From NCBI GenBank assembly GCA_018333785.1, contig JAGXSU010000062.1:1-47671 (forward strand): DNA of 47,671 nucleotides, read 5' to 3'. The notes beneath the pieces are model-generated. The model saw only the letters and a list, made by a program, of their open reading frames with translations, was not told where the DNA came from and ran no database searches. Shown here one piece after another: positions 28,893-34,119 of the stretch (position 1 is the first letter of the stretch; every line of letters begins with the position of its first letter). Origin of the DNA: Methylomicrobium sp. GTDB taxonomy: Bacteria; Pseudomonadota; Gammaproteobacteria; Methylococcales; Methylomonadaceae. The position numbers and the translations under genes were made by a program.

Positions 28893-30845
28893 TTATGCTT
28901 GCCTGTTGAAATACTCAACCAAAACGGGATGAAACGTGTCAATTTGCTCCACGCTGAGACCCGCTTCGGGCGATACATAATCTGCATAACTCAGCAAGTG
29001 AGCGGGATTTAAGAACCCGACGATTCTTTCAAGTTCGCTCAAGCGTAACCCCTTCCTCAATAAATGAATAATGCAGGTATGCCTTAAGCAAAGAGGACTC
29101 ACCTCTTCAGGACTGACTACGCCCGAATCTATCGCAGTCAATGTCAGCCATGCGGAGAGGTCAGCCAGGGAAAAAGTCTTACCGGTGTACCAAGCCGGAA
29201 AAAGTCCGGATTGCTCAAAAAAAACGGACAACCCGGGCGGCAATTCAATCCGGCGTGCCGAGGCGCCATTAACATTGATTGATTGTGTATGTTTATTAAA
29301 GTCTTTGGGAGTCAAATGAGCCACTTCAGTTAAAGATAACCCGCATAGCAGCAGGCTGATCAATTGTTTGCTCATGTTATTGGCGTTAGCTAAAAGACTG
29401 CGCAATTCATTTTGTGATAATTCTCTAATCACCGGAGCAGGTTCTACTTTTTCAGCTTCCAGGACCTGTGCCTTAGGCGTTTTATTTTTTTGCGAAACGC
29501 CCGGAAAATGCTCCGAGGCTTTTTTGTGAGACCGTTTACGATTAAATATGGCCAATTCGGACTGATTTGAAGGCTGCCGCTTTAAAAGCCCACTCATCCA
29601 GACACTGATCAACCCCAATAAAAATGAACCGGACAGAGCAAGCCAGGCATCACTCGTGTAATTTGGCCGGATTGGCTCCCTGGACTGGAGCGCACGCGCT
29701 ACAACATTCATCAAAGGGTATCTTTCAAGTTGCTGCGTTTCAATGCGCATCAATTGCTCCTGATGCTCCCGGTAAACTTTTTCCAGACCCTCGACCTCGC
29801 GATGTAATTGATCGTTTTGCATAAGAACATTCGTGTAATGATCATCAAGTTCTTTTTGCTCGGCCAATTGTTTCCTCAAGGTTATTGAGATCTGTCTGGC
29901 ACTAAAATAACGCCGTTCCGCATTAGAACGTACCATTTTTATACTGAGAAGACGTTGGGCATCAATTTCATTTTGCAGCTTCTTGATTTCCTCCGGGATC
30001 ATTTTTAACGACGGTTGTATCGCTATGTTTGACCGGTAATTATCTTGACTGAAATCATTCAACTTATCTTTTAAATTTTGCAAACGCTGCTGAAGGTTAA
30101 TAATCACAGGATTATCTTGTGGCGGCAGAATAACTTCACCATTCGTTATAGCCTTGTTGATTGCATCCAGTTGGGCTTTGGCTTTAAGCTCCTCCTCGCT
30201 GGCATTGCTGTAAGAAGAAATTAACCCTCTTATCCGCGCTTTCGTTTCATTTTGCTCAGATACTGCCGATTTAATCGCATTATCCCGTTCAAAGTCATCC
30301 ATTGCGATACGCGTCGCTTCTATTTTATTTTCCAAATCAGCCAGGGTGGCTTTGATCTGTTCAGCAAGCTCATTTTTACTTTTTGATGAATCCGCAACGC
30401 GTGCGTCCAAATAAACATCAATCCACGTATTGATCAGCAAAGGCAGCAATTTGGCATCTTCACCTTCCGCCCGAATTTCCATCAAGTGAGCTTCAGGAAC
30501 AGGCTCCAATACCAGCATTCTTCGAAGCTGGGAAACATCCATAAGCGTGCCGGGGCGCAAGACTTCCAATCGTTTTAATGTTTCTTCAAGAAGCTCTTGC
30601 GACAACAATACTTGCTGTTGGATGATGAAATGCTGAACTTGTTGCGAATCGGTTTGATCAAAACCAGCCGCGGCTGAATAGAGGAGTTTGGCACTGCTTT
30701 GATAGATTGCCGGTCGACTGAAAGTGTAAGTTAAACTCAACAAAGCTGAAATGCCAAACGCCAAGCCAAAAACCATGGCTTTTTGGGGGGACAAAAAGGC
30801 TGGCAAACCGGCATCTGATGAATGGCTTTGTAGTAAATCTTTCAT
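28893..30845 (-). CDS. Wzz/GumC-type chain-length protein fused to a degenerate tyrosine-recombinase domain
   Basis: Inner-membrane protein of 650 residues. Residues 1-22 are cytoplasmic, with the first helix about 23-42. Next comes a Wzz-type periplasmic region with long coiled coils (about 150-375), a proline-rich REPIRPNY motif and the second helix about 401-421, the layout of polysaccharide co-polymerases. After a basic linker, residues 474-625 read like a tyrosine recombinase catalytic domain: LRSLLANANN, LISLLLCGLSLTEVAHLTPK, INVNGASARRIELP, SPLCLRHTCIIHLLRKGLRL, ERIVGFLNPAHLLSYADY. Arg588 and Tyr620 remain. The first catalytic Arg is Ser504, the first His is Leu585 and the His/Trp is Phe611, so it is probably not a recombinase. 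It follows the SNF2 gene by 40 bp. No polysaccharide genes are adjacent. Confidence 0.75.
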   Translation of the reverse strand: MKDLLQSHSSDAGLPAFLSPQKAMVFGLAFGISALLSLTYTFSRPAIYQSSAKLLYSAAAGFDQTDSQQVQHFIIQQQVLLSQELLEETLKRLEVLRPGTLMDVSQLRRMLVLEPVPEAHLMEIRAEGEDAKLLPLLINTWIDVYLDARVADSSKSKNELAEQIKATLADLENKIEATRIAMDDFERDNAIKSAVSEQNETKARIRGLISSYSNASEEELKAKAQLDAINKAITNGEVILPPQDNPVIINLQQRLQNLKDKLNDFSQDNYRSNIAIQPSLKMIPEEIKKLQNEIDAQRLLSIKMVRSNAERRYFSARQISITLRKQLAEQKELDDHYTNVLMQNDQLHREVEGLEKVYREHQEQLMRIETQQLERYPLMNVVARALQSREPIRPNYTSDAWLALSGSFLLGLISVWMSGLLKRQPSNQSELAIFNRKRSHKKASEHFPGVSQKNKTPKAQVLEAEKVEPAPVIRELSQNELRSLLANANNMSKQLISLLLCGLSLTEVAHLTPKDFNKHTQSINVNGASARRIELPPGLSVFFEQSGLFPAWYTGKTFSLADLSAWLTLTAIDSGVVSPEEVSPLCLRHTCIIHLLRKGLRLSELERIVGFLNPAHLLSYADYVSPEAGLSVEQIDTFHPVLVEYFNRQA

Positions 30846-30885: not shown

Positions 30886-33800
30886 TCAAACCGGCTTAAA
30901 AAGCGACGTCAGATCATCCAGGGTCAGGCTCTCAATTTTGCCTGCATCCTCCTGATAAACCTCATCGGCCAAGGCCCGTTTTTTCTCCTGCATCTTCAGA
31001 ATCTTTTCTTCTACTGTATTTTCAGTCATTAATTTATAGACAAAAACAGGCTTATCCTGACCGATGCGATAGGCTCGATCAGCTGCTTGAGATTCAACCG
31101 CAGGATTCCACCATGGATCATAGATAATAACCGTATCGGCTTGTGTCAAGTTCAAACCGACCCCGCCCGCCTTAAGGCTGATTAAAAACACATTGACCGC
31201 ACCGCTGGTAAATGTGTTGATCACCTCGTCTCTGTCCTTGGTTTGGCCGGTTAATTGAGTATACGGAATATTGCGCTCAATCAGCTCAACTTCAATAAGC
31301 CGCAGCATTTTTGTAAACTGAGAAAACACCAGTATTCGCCGCCCCTCTTCAAGCAACTCCGGCAGCATCTCCATCAACAAATCAAGCTTGGCCGATTCTT
31401 TAACTTTTTGAGCTTCCTTCAAAGGTAATGTTCGGGGATCACAACAGGTTTGCCTTAGTTTAAGCAAGGCATCCAAAATGGTGATGTGACTGCGAGCCAA
31501 GCCTTTTTCCTCAATAGCTGCACGCACTTTCTGCTCCATGGACAAACGAATACTCTCGTATAAAGCAGCTTGTTTATCATACAACGGGACCGAGCGGATA
31601 ATTTCTGTCTTGGGCGGCAATTCCTTTGCCACTTCCTGCTTGGTTCTTCGCAACAAAAATGGCGCCAGACGTCGGGATAATCTGTTTTTTTGTTCAACAT
31701 CACCTTCCATCTCAATAGGCGATCGGTAAACCCGTTTAAAAAAAGCACTATCACCTAAAAATCCAGGCATTAAAAAATCAAATTGAGCCCACAATTCTCC
31801 CAAGTGATTTTCCATGGGCGTTCCTGTCAAACTTAGACGGTGAGTTGCTTTAATTTGCCGGACAAATTTTGACGCATTGGTTTTGGGGTTTTTAATCATC
31901 TGCGCCTCGTCCAGAATAAGGTAGTAATAGCGCGACTTTAGTAACACATCGGCATCTCTGGACAACAGCGGATAAGTAGTCAAAATCAAATCATGACTAT
32001 CAATTTTATCGAACAGGCTCTTACGGTCCGCTCCCTGCAGGGTTAACACTTTTAACCCGGGCGTAAAGCGCTCTGCTTCCCTGCGCCAATTCCCCATCAG
32101 GCTGGTCGGCGCAACGATCAGGCAAGGATCAAACAGCCTTCCCGCCTCTTTCTCTAATAACAAGTGCGTCAGCGTTTGAATGGTTTTGCCCAAGCCCATA
32201 TCATCAGCCAGAATACCGGCAAAATGATATTCTCTCAAAAACTGCAACCAGTTCAATCCCTGGCGTTGATAGCCACGCAGTTCGGCATTTAAGCCCTGAG
32301 GCAACACAGACGCACCAATACCCGAAAAATTTTTCAATTTCCTGCCTAACTCTCTTAAGGATTTACCGCCTCTGATGCTGAATACACCATAGCTTCGTTC
32401 TTCAACGTCAACGAGACTTGCCGCATCATAGCGAGAAAGTTTGAGTGTTCCATTGCCGTTAGCCAACCCTGTATTGAATAACTCATATAAAACATTAAGA
32501 ATGGGCTGCAGTTGGTCTGACGAAATCGAAAGATAGTTGTGAGTCCCTACTGAAATATTGAGCCTGTCCGGCAAAGAATCAAGATCATAATGCTCAAGGA
32601 CAGGCATGATCAAAGGCAACAAGGGTAAAGACTTGCCGTCGATAGTGACATTAAAACTCATGTCGAACCAGTCACTGTCTTTTTCTTCTATCTCGGCATC
32701 AAAAGACTCCGACATTTGAAACTGCATCAGAAAACTGGCATCTTTCTCAATGACCCACCCCTCTTGCTGGAGTTGCGGACACACCACTTCCAGAAAATCC
32801 CGCCACAAATAGGGATTGTCCATGCTGCTGTTTTTCAGCCCTCCCCATAACAGACGTTCATTTTTATCCGCCGATGACCACTCAAAGCCCAAACCGGTGA
32901 GCCTCGCCAATGCCTCCCGCTCCCTTTCCTGATCACGATGAATGCGCAAAACGCCGTGAGTCCCTTTAACGACAGATAATACGTACTCTTGGTCAAACAG
33001 CAAAACATCGCCATAATCAAAACCCATTTTTACAAAATGATTGTAGTGACGCCCACCCTCCTCTTTTCCTAACAGAATAAGATGCGGCCGGGGCGCTATA
33101 TCCTTCAGTTCGATCAAATCCATAGCCTGGGGCGGCGGCACCGGAAAATCAGGATGCCTGAATATCAGCATTTCACTGAATTGTTCGACCAAAACTTCCG
33201 GCACAGGGGGCGCAGTCATCAGGTAACTGGCCTGCTCAGCACTTAAAGGCCGGGTATCTAATGCCCCGATTCTATTCTGGCTTTCATCCAGATAAAGCGG
33301 CGGCGTAACGCGAATCAGCTTAGCCTCCGGCTCTATTACGCCAAGCAATTGATAATCGCCACAGTCTTGTTTTTGCCAGTTGAATTGTATTTGGCGAGGT
33401 TCGCCTGGTGTTAAAGGTGAGTTTTCAAGATCCAGATAGAACAATCTTCCCGTACTAATGAGCTTGGTCAATACCAAATGCCCTGCAGCGCCCGCGATGA
33501 TAGGCTGACTAGAAGGCGTCAGCTTAAGAGCGGTGAGCAATCGGATAATTTCCTCATCTTCAGCCTGAATAAACGAGCTATAGCTATAGTTGTAGCGCAG
33601 ATTATTAATGCTGGTCTTTTTGCCCTTACTTAAACCGCCAGCTGGCTTCTGCCGGGTTTCCATAAGATCCAGTATGTAGCCATAAGGTTTTGATCCCGGT
33701 ATTAATAAATAGGCCAGGAACTCCTGAAAATCAGATTTACTTTCGGGCTTTGCTGCATAAGCTTCCAGCCATCTTAAACAATCGGCTGTATGCGTTTCAA

Positions 33801-34119
33801 TGACTTTCGGATGGGCCAATATTTTTTGATAGTACAGACAGACAGCGGCAACATGTTTGCAGTTATAACCGACCGTGCAAGAACAGCGACCGTTGATCGA
33901 GATTGACTTGAAATTGTTTTTCCATAAAACGGTGATTTTTTGCTCGTAACCTTTTTTACCCATTCCCTTAACCGACGAAACCAGCACCGCTGAATCATTT
34001 TTTTCATCGATACTGACATCGGTGACTTTTTCGTTCAAAAAATAATCCATGCCCCCGGCAAATGCCGAATCGCTGCATTCATAGCGAATATCTGAATTTA
34101 AAATCGCTTTCTGATTCAT
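30886..34119 (-). CDS. SWIM zinc-finger SNF2-family helicase
   Basis: Large cytoplasmic Swi2/Snf2 ATPase of 1077 residues. A SWIM zinc finger lies near the N-terminus (CSC...CKH at residues 79-89). A middle region carries bacterial SNF2-associated sequence, then the helicase core: LADDMGLGKTIQTL (Walker A), VAPTSLMGNW, LDEAQMIKN (DEAQ box), LTGTPMENHLGELW, and in the second lobe VFSQFTKML, LKAGGVGLNLTQAD and QAADRAYRIGQ. Such proteins move along double-stranded DNA; bacterial roles include transcription recycling or genome defence. It is first in a likely two-gene unit with the Wzz-recombinase fusion 40 bp downstream. No other defence genes are nearby. Confidence 0.92.
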   Translation of the reverse strand: MNQKAILNSDIRYECSDSAFAGGMDYFLNEKVTDVSIDEKNDSAVLVSSVKGMGKKGYEQKITVLWKNNFKSISINGRCSCTVGYNCKHVAAVCLYYQKILAHPKVIETHTADCLRWLEAYAAKPESKSDFQEFLAYLLIPGSKPYGYILDLMETRQKPAGGLSKGKKTSINNLRYNYSYSSFIQAEDEEIIRLLTALKLTPSSQPIIAGAAGHLVLTKLISTGRLFYLDLENSPLTPGEPRQIQFNWQKQDCGDYQLLGVIEPEAKLIRVTPPLYLDESQNRIGALDTRPLSAEQASYLMTAPPVPEVLVEQFSEMLIFRHPDFPVPPPQAMDLIELKDIAPRPHLILLGKEEGGRHYNHFVKMGFDYGDVLLFDQEYVLSVVKGTHGVLRIHRDQEREREALARLTGLGFEWSSADKNERLLWGGLKNSSMDNPYLWRDFLEVVCPQLQQEGWVIEKDASFLMQFQMSESFDAEIEEKDSDWFDMSFNVTIDGKSLPLLPLIMPVLEHYDLDSLPDRLNISVGTHNYLSISSDQLQPILNVLYELFNTGLANGNGTLKLSRYDAASLVDVEERSYGVFSIRGGKSLRELGRKLKNFSGIGASVLPQGLNAELRGYQRQGLNWLQFLREYHFAGILADDMGLGKTIQTLTHLLLEKEAGRLFDPCLIVAPTSLMGNWRREAERFTPGLKVLTLQGADRKSLFDKIDSHDLILTTYPLLSRDADVLLKSRYYYLILDEAQMIKNPKTNASKFVRQIKATHRLSLTGTPMENHLGELWAQFDFLMPGFLGDSAFFKRVYRSPIEMEGDVEQKNRLSRRLAPFLLRRTKQEVAKELPPKTEIIRSVPLYDKQAALYESIRLSMEQKVRAAIEEKGLARSHITILDALLKLRQTCCDPRTLPLKEAQKVKESAKLDLLMEMLPELLEEGRRILVFSQFTKMLRLIEVELIERNIPYTQLTGQTKDRDEVINTFTSGAVNVFLISLKAGGVGLNLTQADTVIIYDPWWNPAVESQAADRAYRIGQDKPVFVYKLMTENTVEEKILKMQEKKRALADEVYQEDAGKIESLTLDDLTSLFKPV

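Follow-up and report, generated by a model that had tools for sequence, protein, structure and literature searches.

Tyrosine recombinases are known as DNA enzymes and, in the case of MrpR, as DNA-binding repressors. In the stretch of Methylomicrobium sp. DNA analysed here (contig JAGXSU010000062.1, positions 1 to 47,671, 47,671 nucleotides in full; the window), such a fold, without key catalytic residues and without the charge of a DNA binder, is kept as the predicted cytoplasmic end of an envelope polysaccharide protein. What does it do there? The gene (28893..30845, minus strand) encodes a polysaccharide co-polymerase fused to a degenerate tyrosine-recombinase catalytic domain. It is one open reading frame of 650 amino acids with an ATG start and zero internal stops, which confirms a preliminary description of this DNA that had called the gene intact. 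A second full-length copy with 43% identity to the window gene is found elsewhere in the same genome. Automatic annotation may call such genes integrases or leave the domain unnamed.

The N-terminal part was analysed with family profiles and with a predicted structure. Two membrane helices, read from the predicted model and from hydrophobicity, would span residues 20-43 (30717..30788, minus strand) and 396-421 (29583..29660, minus strand), the second being preceded by the proline-containing stretch REPIRPNY. In the model they flank the periplasmic co-polymerase part at residues 44-395 (29661..30716, minus strand), a Wzz-like alpha/beta portion with coiled-coil helices, the long ones at 133-189, 194-234 and 278-370. 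The best NCBIfam match of this part was EpsF (E 5.8e-9, residues 106-394), which at 35 bits is far below the curated cut-off of 423 bits, and Pfam Wzz was also below its cut-off (E 0.0031, 18.2 bits, cut-off 25.5). When the full-length model (pLDDT 78.2, pTM 0.35) was compared with solved structures by Foldseek, Wzc came first (E from 4e-9), then KpsE and WzzE, then XerA. The matches to Wzc, KpsE and WzzE were at E 4e-9 to 1e-4 with low TM-scores. By layout and fold, not by the Pfam Wzz threshold, residues 20 to about 421 look like a polysaccharide co-polymerase, in agreement with the two-helix, coiled-coil Wzz/GumC layout proposed earlier. No kinase family, and so no C-terminal tyrosine kinase of the PCP-2a type, was reported for the protein by the Pfam and NCBIfam scans. 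The window's genome contains further Wzz-like matches, of which one in four is over the cut-off.

Behind the second helix, a linker of residues 422-472 (29430..29582, minus strand) that is predicted to be disordered leads to the recombinase-like domain at residues 473-650 (28896..29429, minus strand), which was delimited by profile, structure and alignment. The single sequence gave a weak match to Pfam Phage_integrase (E 4.3e-5, 23.8 bits, cut-off 27.1). A profile of 30 relatives found XerA 4a8e at E 3e-10 and the P2 integrase at 2.1e-7. The AlphaFold2 model of the domain (pLDDT 92.8, pTM 0.90) matched 4a8e, an archaeal Xer recombinase, with a Z score of 16.8 over 150 residues and an rmsd of 2.9. 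Further integrases, Cre and lambda Int followed in the structural ranking, and the MrpR structure 8a0a was also among the matches (Z 11.5). Among the best 50 matches listed from a viral structure library, the named rows were integrases or recombinase-domain proteins and several rows were nameless. A chance similarity to recombinases is ruled out by the profile and structure matches, and the predicted tyrosine-recombinase catalytic fold of residues 473-650 is not in doubt. The preliminary description had claimed that the C-terminal residues follow a tyrosine recombinase and had offered to drop the claim if residues 470-650 showed no structural match to one; the XerA match upholds it. The model lacks the core-binding half of a recombinase; the linker occupies its place, with pLDDT below 50 at residues 423-469 and a membrane helix just before.

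The occurrence of the fusion was followed from the genus to the phylum. Within the genus it was present in 3 of 3 genomes searched, the window's own included. In the family, 44 of 101 genomes matched the full-length query and 57 did not. Sorted by reading of the result rows, the 44 comprised 30 near full-length fusions in one frame, 4 fragments or broken frames with the domain, 1 cut by a contig end, 4 with the co-polymerase only and 5 with weak similarity to other co-polymerases. In the class, the domain profile matched 21 of 369 genomes at 1e-6. Six of these had fusion-length frames of 658-685 amino acids (E 1e-36 or better); the other 15, at 1e-9 to 1e-6 in frames of 103-460 amino acids, were read as ordinary recombinases or pieces. 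Across the phylum, 3 of 398 genomes matched at 1e-12 in frames of 658-680 amino acids, one of which (genome G788, locus L164) is a further divergent fusion. No plasmid copy was found at 1e-10 when the whole protein was compared by tblastn with 72,556 plasmid records.

Named genomes were scanned with one short pattern that is absent from the window's own copy; 62 stretches matched and 45 were confirmed, which makes this a sample. In all 45 confirmed loci the domain sits behind a co-polymerase, in one frame in 43, with the domain serving as the query, so that loci without it could not appear. The carriers include Methylobacter, Methylotuvimicrobium, Nitrosospira, Nitrosovibrio, Nitrosomonas, Aromatoleum, Rubrivivax, Paraglaciecola and Accumulibacter, among others. 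A search for the same fusion in other Methylococcales had been proposed earlier; it is present in methanotrophs and also outside this order, in ammonia oxidisers, Aromatoleum and others. The methanotroph Methylotuvimicrobium buryatense 5G has its fusion at locus L118. At L120 and L140 the fusion is split over two overlapping frames, either because the frame broke recently or through an error in sequencing.

Strand exchange by tyrosine recombinases needs the first catalytic arginine and the box-II histidine. The catalytic positions were read from a family alignment of 71 distinct domains, obtained from 89 loci found by similarity (E <1e-20), with 88 domain hits, after identical domains had been dropped; methanotrophs and nitrifiers weigh heavily in its counts, and it does not contain the divergent L164. 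At the place of the first arginine the window copy has Ser504 (29334..29336, minus strand), and arginine was found in 0 of the 71 domains, the residue being T, S, N, D or A in every one. The box-II histidine occurred in 0 of 70 (one gap), with Leu585 in the window. The second arginine, Arg588 (29082..29084, minus strand), was kept in 68 of 71 domains and replaced by S or T in 3. At box III, where the window has Phe611, there was histidine in 9 of 71 and tryptophan in none. Tyr620 (28986..28988, minus strand), at the place of the nucleophile, was kept in 63 of 71 and was L, F or C in 8. The window copy thus reads S, L, R, F, Y at the five columns.

For comparison, 30 recombinase loci were taken, of which 26 distinct controls were kept, and aligned jointly with the family by profile. 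Counted over the rows having a letter (2 to 9 controls were gapped per column), they had the first arginine in 23 of 24, the box-II histidine in 17 of 17, the second arginine in 21 of 21, H or W at box III in 21 of 21 and the tyrosine in 21 of 21. The family columns line up with the R/H/R/H-W/Y positions of the controls, so the earlier assignments of Ser504, Leu585, Arg588, Phe611 and Tyr620 were right, and the catalytic degeneration claimed with them is borne out by the first arginine (0/71) and the box-II histidine (0/70). The candidate lysine column, at window residue 529, was basic in 84% of the controls versus 6% of the family, the placement of this lysine being uncertain. Neither the family nor the window copy has the R, K, H, R, H/W, Y set of an active recombinase. 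Since the first arginine and the box-II histidine are lost and column 529 is seldom basic, strand exchange by the domain is very unlikely.

The charge of the domain was then compared with that of recombinases, the net charge of a whole domain being a coarse measure. The net charge of the 71 family domains ranged from -14 to 0 around a median of -6, with a pI >7 in 2 of 71, and the window's own domain had -4 and a pI of 5.8. Control recombinases found by the same profile had a median of +8 and a pI >7 in 17 of 17 rows (18 loci gave the 17 rows, three of which are apparently copies of one gene in one genome). The recombinases of the window's own genome had a median of +6 and a pI >7 in 11 of 11; this set came from 12 loci out of 28 integrase-family matches, with L158 lacking a frame at its centre and L159 and L161 ending alike. 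The lengths differed (172 residues for the family, 186 for the 17 rows, the last 185 for the own-genome set), and a comparison over the same 129 columns agreed: the mean numbers of basic and acidic residues were 16.4 and 10.4 in the 26 controls versus 9.3 and 14.0 in the 71 family members, a mean difference of about +6 versus about -5. Six columns were basic in at least half of the controls. In the family, three of them were basic in 0-6%, one (residue 512) in 37% and two (residues 531 and 588) in 99% and 96%; Arg531 was kept in 70 of 71 domains. Since the domain is acidic and the core-binding half is missing, DNA binding is unlikely. The acidic turn is a point new to this analysis. Of the "DNA or protein binding" suggested in the preliminary description, the protein half is favoured and the DNA half is unlikely, given the acidic domain and the absent core-binding half.

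Selection on the gene was estimated from five non-independent pairs in two groups of three genomes; L001 apart, the region borders are approximate. The domain had dN/dS values of 0.09, 0.10 and 0.13 between three orthologues of the window gene; in two paralogue comparisons they were 0.25 and 0.28. The co-polymerase part had 0.08-0.14 in the five comparisons, and the linker 0.22-0.47, above both flanking parts. The paralogue's domain, at 0.25 and 0.28 versus 0.14 and 0.12 for its co-polymerase part, is therefore about twice as relaxed. With values of 0.09-0.13 versus 0.25-0.28, the domain is by this estimate under purifying selection, less strict in the paralogue. The family has conserved residues of its own, Y591 (68/71), Q598 (68/71), P625 (63/71) and P640 (69/71), and the conserved patches lie around RH[TS]YIxYLVRQGLRL and in the C-terminal tail. 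The window copy departs from the common residues with Cys591, His594, Lys598 and Ser625.

In a tree of 51 fusions, 12 Nitrosospira/Nitrosovibrio copies (L108, L113, L114, L116, L119, L121-L125, L127, L129) grouped with eight Methylobacter-type copies (100/100), and the Nitrosomonas copies fell apart from this group. Since the Nitrosospira/Nitrosovibrio copies group with those of the Methylobacter type and not with those of Nitrosomonas, the tree points to a gene transfer between methanotrophs and ammonia oxidisers, in either direction. This tree and that of the N-terminal part were midpoint-rooted for drawing only, and the placement of long-branched rows is unsure; of the two paralogues in the genus, the window copy has the longer stem (1.33 versus 0.43).

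Four loci from four genomes of one genus (L062, L063, L071 and L072) encode close co-polymerase relatives without the recombinase domain; in L062 and L071 the protein ends some 60 residues past the second membrane helix. In the tree of the N-terminal part these four co-polymerases grouped with two fused proteins (100/100), and the fork joining them to one of the fused proteins had 94/84. Given the midpoint root as drawn, the lineage is most simply read as a loss. A separate copy of the domain gave no match in three of the four genomes; in the fourth, one match in a 330-amino-acid frame at 3.7e-4 is probably an ordinary recombinase. The idea of a split gene, with the domain carried separately, was followed in the four domain-less and two fused genomes, and none of the domain-less four had a convincing copy. 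Since four genomes of one genus have a domain-less co-polymerase and no convincing copy of the domain elsewhere, the domain is not indispensable. The relatives outside the Methylococcales and the domain-less lineage are additions to the earlier observation.

The gene neighbourhood was surveyed for the window and 85 further loci, some of them duplicates of one genome. Directly upstream of the fusion gene, after a gap of 40 bases, lies a SNF2-family helicase gene (30886..34119, minus strand), named after its same-cluster relative L074, whose best NCBIfam match was the SCO1167/SCO6262 family, below the cut-off. Counting the window, 12 distinct loci have a same-strand gene of this cluster upstream, with gaps of -4 to 405 bases and the duplicates L103, L110, L115, L117, L118 and L138 left out of the count. 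At L064, where a contig end truncates the fusion, it lies downstream instead. The helicase is a conserved upstream neighbour for no obvious reason. Downstream on the same strand, 10 distinct loci have a family-2 glycosyltransferase (TIGR04283), which overlaps the end of the fusion or starts within 42 bases in 9 of the 10 (start codons were set mechanically and the overlaps are approximate). The gene after it belongs to the fatty-acid hydroxylase family in 7 of the 10 loci. Six other distinct loci, three in the window's genus, have upstream on the same strand a gene that is GH17-like at 26.7 bits versus a Pfam cut-off of 28.2 (L131), and some of these loci also have a glycosyltransferase-2 synthase close by. 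Two neighbour clusters were scanned in Nitrosospira; one was an aminopeptidase and the other a hydrolase. The downstream gene in the window is convergent and no glycosyltransferase. Immediately around the gene in the window there is no recognisable Wzx/Wzy cluster, and the neighbours vary between clades. Mixed as it is across clades, the neighbourhood speaks weakly for a polysaccharide role without fixing the function. Scans for repeats and signals gave three imperfect pairs of inverted repeats with nothing useful in them, promoter-like sites at chance level (3 versus 3.5 in shuffled sequence) and 5 terminator-like sites versus 2.8 (sd 1.8).

We infer that purifying selection keeps a dead recombinase fold here as a module for protein interaction or assembly in the cytoplasm, and give this reading a probability of about 0.6. 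The domain would stand at the cytoplasmic end of the co-polymerase, past the second membrane helix, on a flexible tether of about 50 residues, where Wzc has its tyrosine kinase, and would act as a protein-protein module of the co-polymerase ring. It would neither cut nor join DNA. Contacts of the C-terminal tail from neighbour to neighbour might help to assemble and gate the ring, or the domain might dock a glycosyltransferase or a regulator at the membrane. An assembly or docking module is the best explanation since the domain takes the position of the Wzc kinase, is flexibly tethered and has a C-terminal tail of the family's own. The earlier idea of a recombinase fold re-used as a module behind a co-polymerase gains support from the architecture, the fold and the catalytic loss. 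Counted against the protein module are the N-terminal matches below curated cut-offs, the pTM of 0.35 for the full-length model, the departures of the window copy from the common family residues, the lack of a recognisable Wzx/Wzy cluster close to the gene and the change of neighbours from clade to clade, the four genomes that do without the domain, the relaxed paralogue domain, the nearly constant Arg531 and Arg588, and a DNA enzyme, the SNF2 helicase, as a common neighbour.

These last points would fit a membrane-tethered regulator that has lost catalysis, still binds DNA and ties export to the chromosome or to transcription in the manner of MrpR. Arg531, Arg588 and Tyr620 are kept in 70, 68 and 63 of the 71 domains, the helicase gene is upstream in 12 distinct loci, and MrpR, which matches the domain structurally at Z 11.5, is a precedent of a recombinase fold turned repressor according to the parts of the paper used (PMC10516654). 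However, the family is acidic (pI >7 in 2 of 71), and of the six columns that are basic in the controls three are basic in 0-6% of its members, one in 37% and two in 96-99%. The core-binding domain that MrpR has is absent. MrpR also has a groove described as positively charged in those parts (PMC10516654); the net charge of -4 in the window domain and the family median of -6 would speak against such a groove here. We regard such a regulator as unlikely. Some remaining chemistry through Arg588 and Tyr620, for example covalent phosphotyrosyl chemistry on a nucleic acid or another phosphodiester, would explain why the two residues are kept in 68 and 63 of 71 domains. It is highly improbable, since the first arginine (0/71) and the box-II histidine (0/70) are gone, L, F or C replaces the tyrosine in 8 of 71 domains and S or T the arginine in 3, and the tyrosine retained in MrpR came without recombination activity, as far as the parts of PMC10516654 used go.

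The domain might instead be a passenger, an integrase fragment that was once fused and is kept because it folds harmlessly. The loss of the catalytic residues, the lineage that has neither the domain nor a convincing separate copy, and the paralogue domain, with a dN/dS about twice that of the co-polymerase part, agree with this. Purifying selection at a dN/dS of 0.09-0.28, residues conserved family-wide and the retention of the domain in 45 of 45 confirmed named loci, in a scan blind to domain-less loci, speak against it, and we consider a mere passenger improbable. An assembly or annotation artefact joining two genes could be suspected from the weak single-sequence matches at both ends. Its probability is negligible: 3 of 3 genus genomes have the fusion, as do 30 of 101 family genomes in a near full-length single frame, and of the 45 named loci 43 have it unbroken. 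An assembly error, which the preliminary description had named as fatal to its claim, is thereby effectively refuted by independent genomes.

Tyrosine recombinases form a tetramer by a cyclic contact in which the tail of one subunit enters its neighbour. As a more specific form of the protein-module reading, which we hold tentatively and consider possible but doubtful, this contact would now build and gate the cytoplasmic ring of the co-polymerase and so replace the kinase ring of Wzc, with no DNA involved. In Wzc, according to the parts of the paper used here, the kinase domains form an octameric ring with the C-terminal tail of one subunit reaching into the next, and autophosphorylation is proposed to take the octamer apart (PMC8285477). 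If the ring is formed in this way, a recombinase domain has taken on a role in the cell envelope that consists of protein assembly alone. If the domain is a protein module in the wider sense, a mobile-element fold would have found an unexpected new use, and the fusions would define a co-polymerase group whose cytoplasmic module is not a kinase.

Among known systems, the fusion resembles Wzc (PCP-2a) in having two membrane helices round a periplasmic Wzz-like and helical part, followed by a globular cytoplasmic domain; Wzc ends in a tyrosine kinase, whereas the fusion ends in the degenerate recombinase fold. It is also close to the EpsF/GumC-type co-polymerases without a kinase, with EpsF as the best NCBIfam match of the N-terminal part, but it is far below the EpsF curated cut-off and has an extra domain. 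With XerA/XerD and the P2-type integrases it shares the fold of the catalytic domain, the second arginine and the tyrosine; unlike them, the window copy is without the first arginine, both histidines and a core-binding domain, and its charge is reversed. In the literature used, the closest earlier case found of a dead recombinase fold is MrpR (YopR), the repressor of prophage SPbeta, a tyrosine-recombinase fold that has lost most of its catalytic set but keeps the tyrosine. Three of its seven catalytic residues are left, the tyrosine and the lysine among them, and its groove is positively charged in the text and negatively charged in one figure legend, as far as the parts used show (PMC10516654). 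MrpR, as described in those parts, has a core-binding domain and binds DNA, whereas the domain of the fusion is without this half, acidic and apparently tethered to the membrane. A description of a co-polymerase/recombinase fusion was not found in a search of open-access full texts; the preliminary description had likewise known of no described example of the architecture.

The window's genome is rich in ordinary relatives of the domain, with 26 of its 28 integrase-family matches over the cut-off. Outside the window, at G000:C49, three integrase-family genes (L159, L160 and L161) stand in a row, and L159 and L161 terminate in identical residues.
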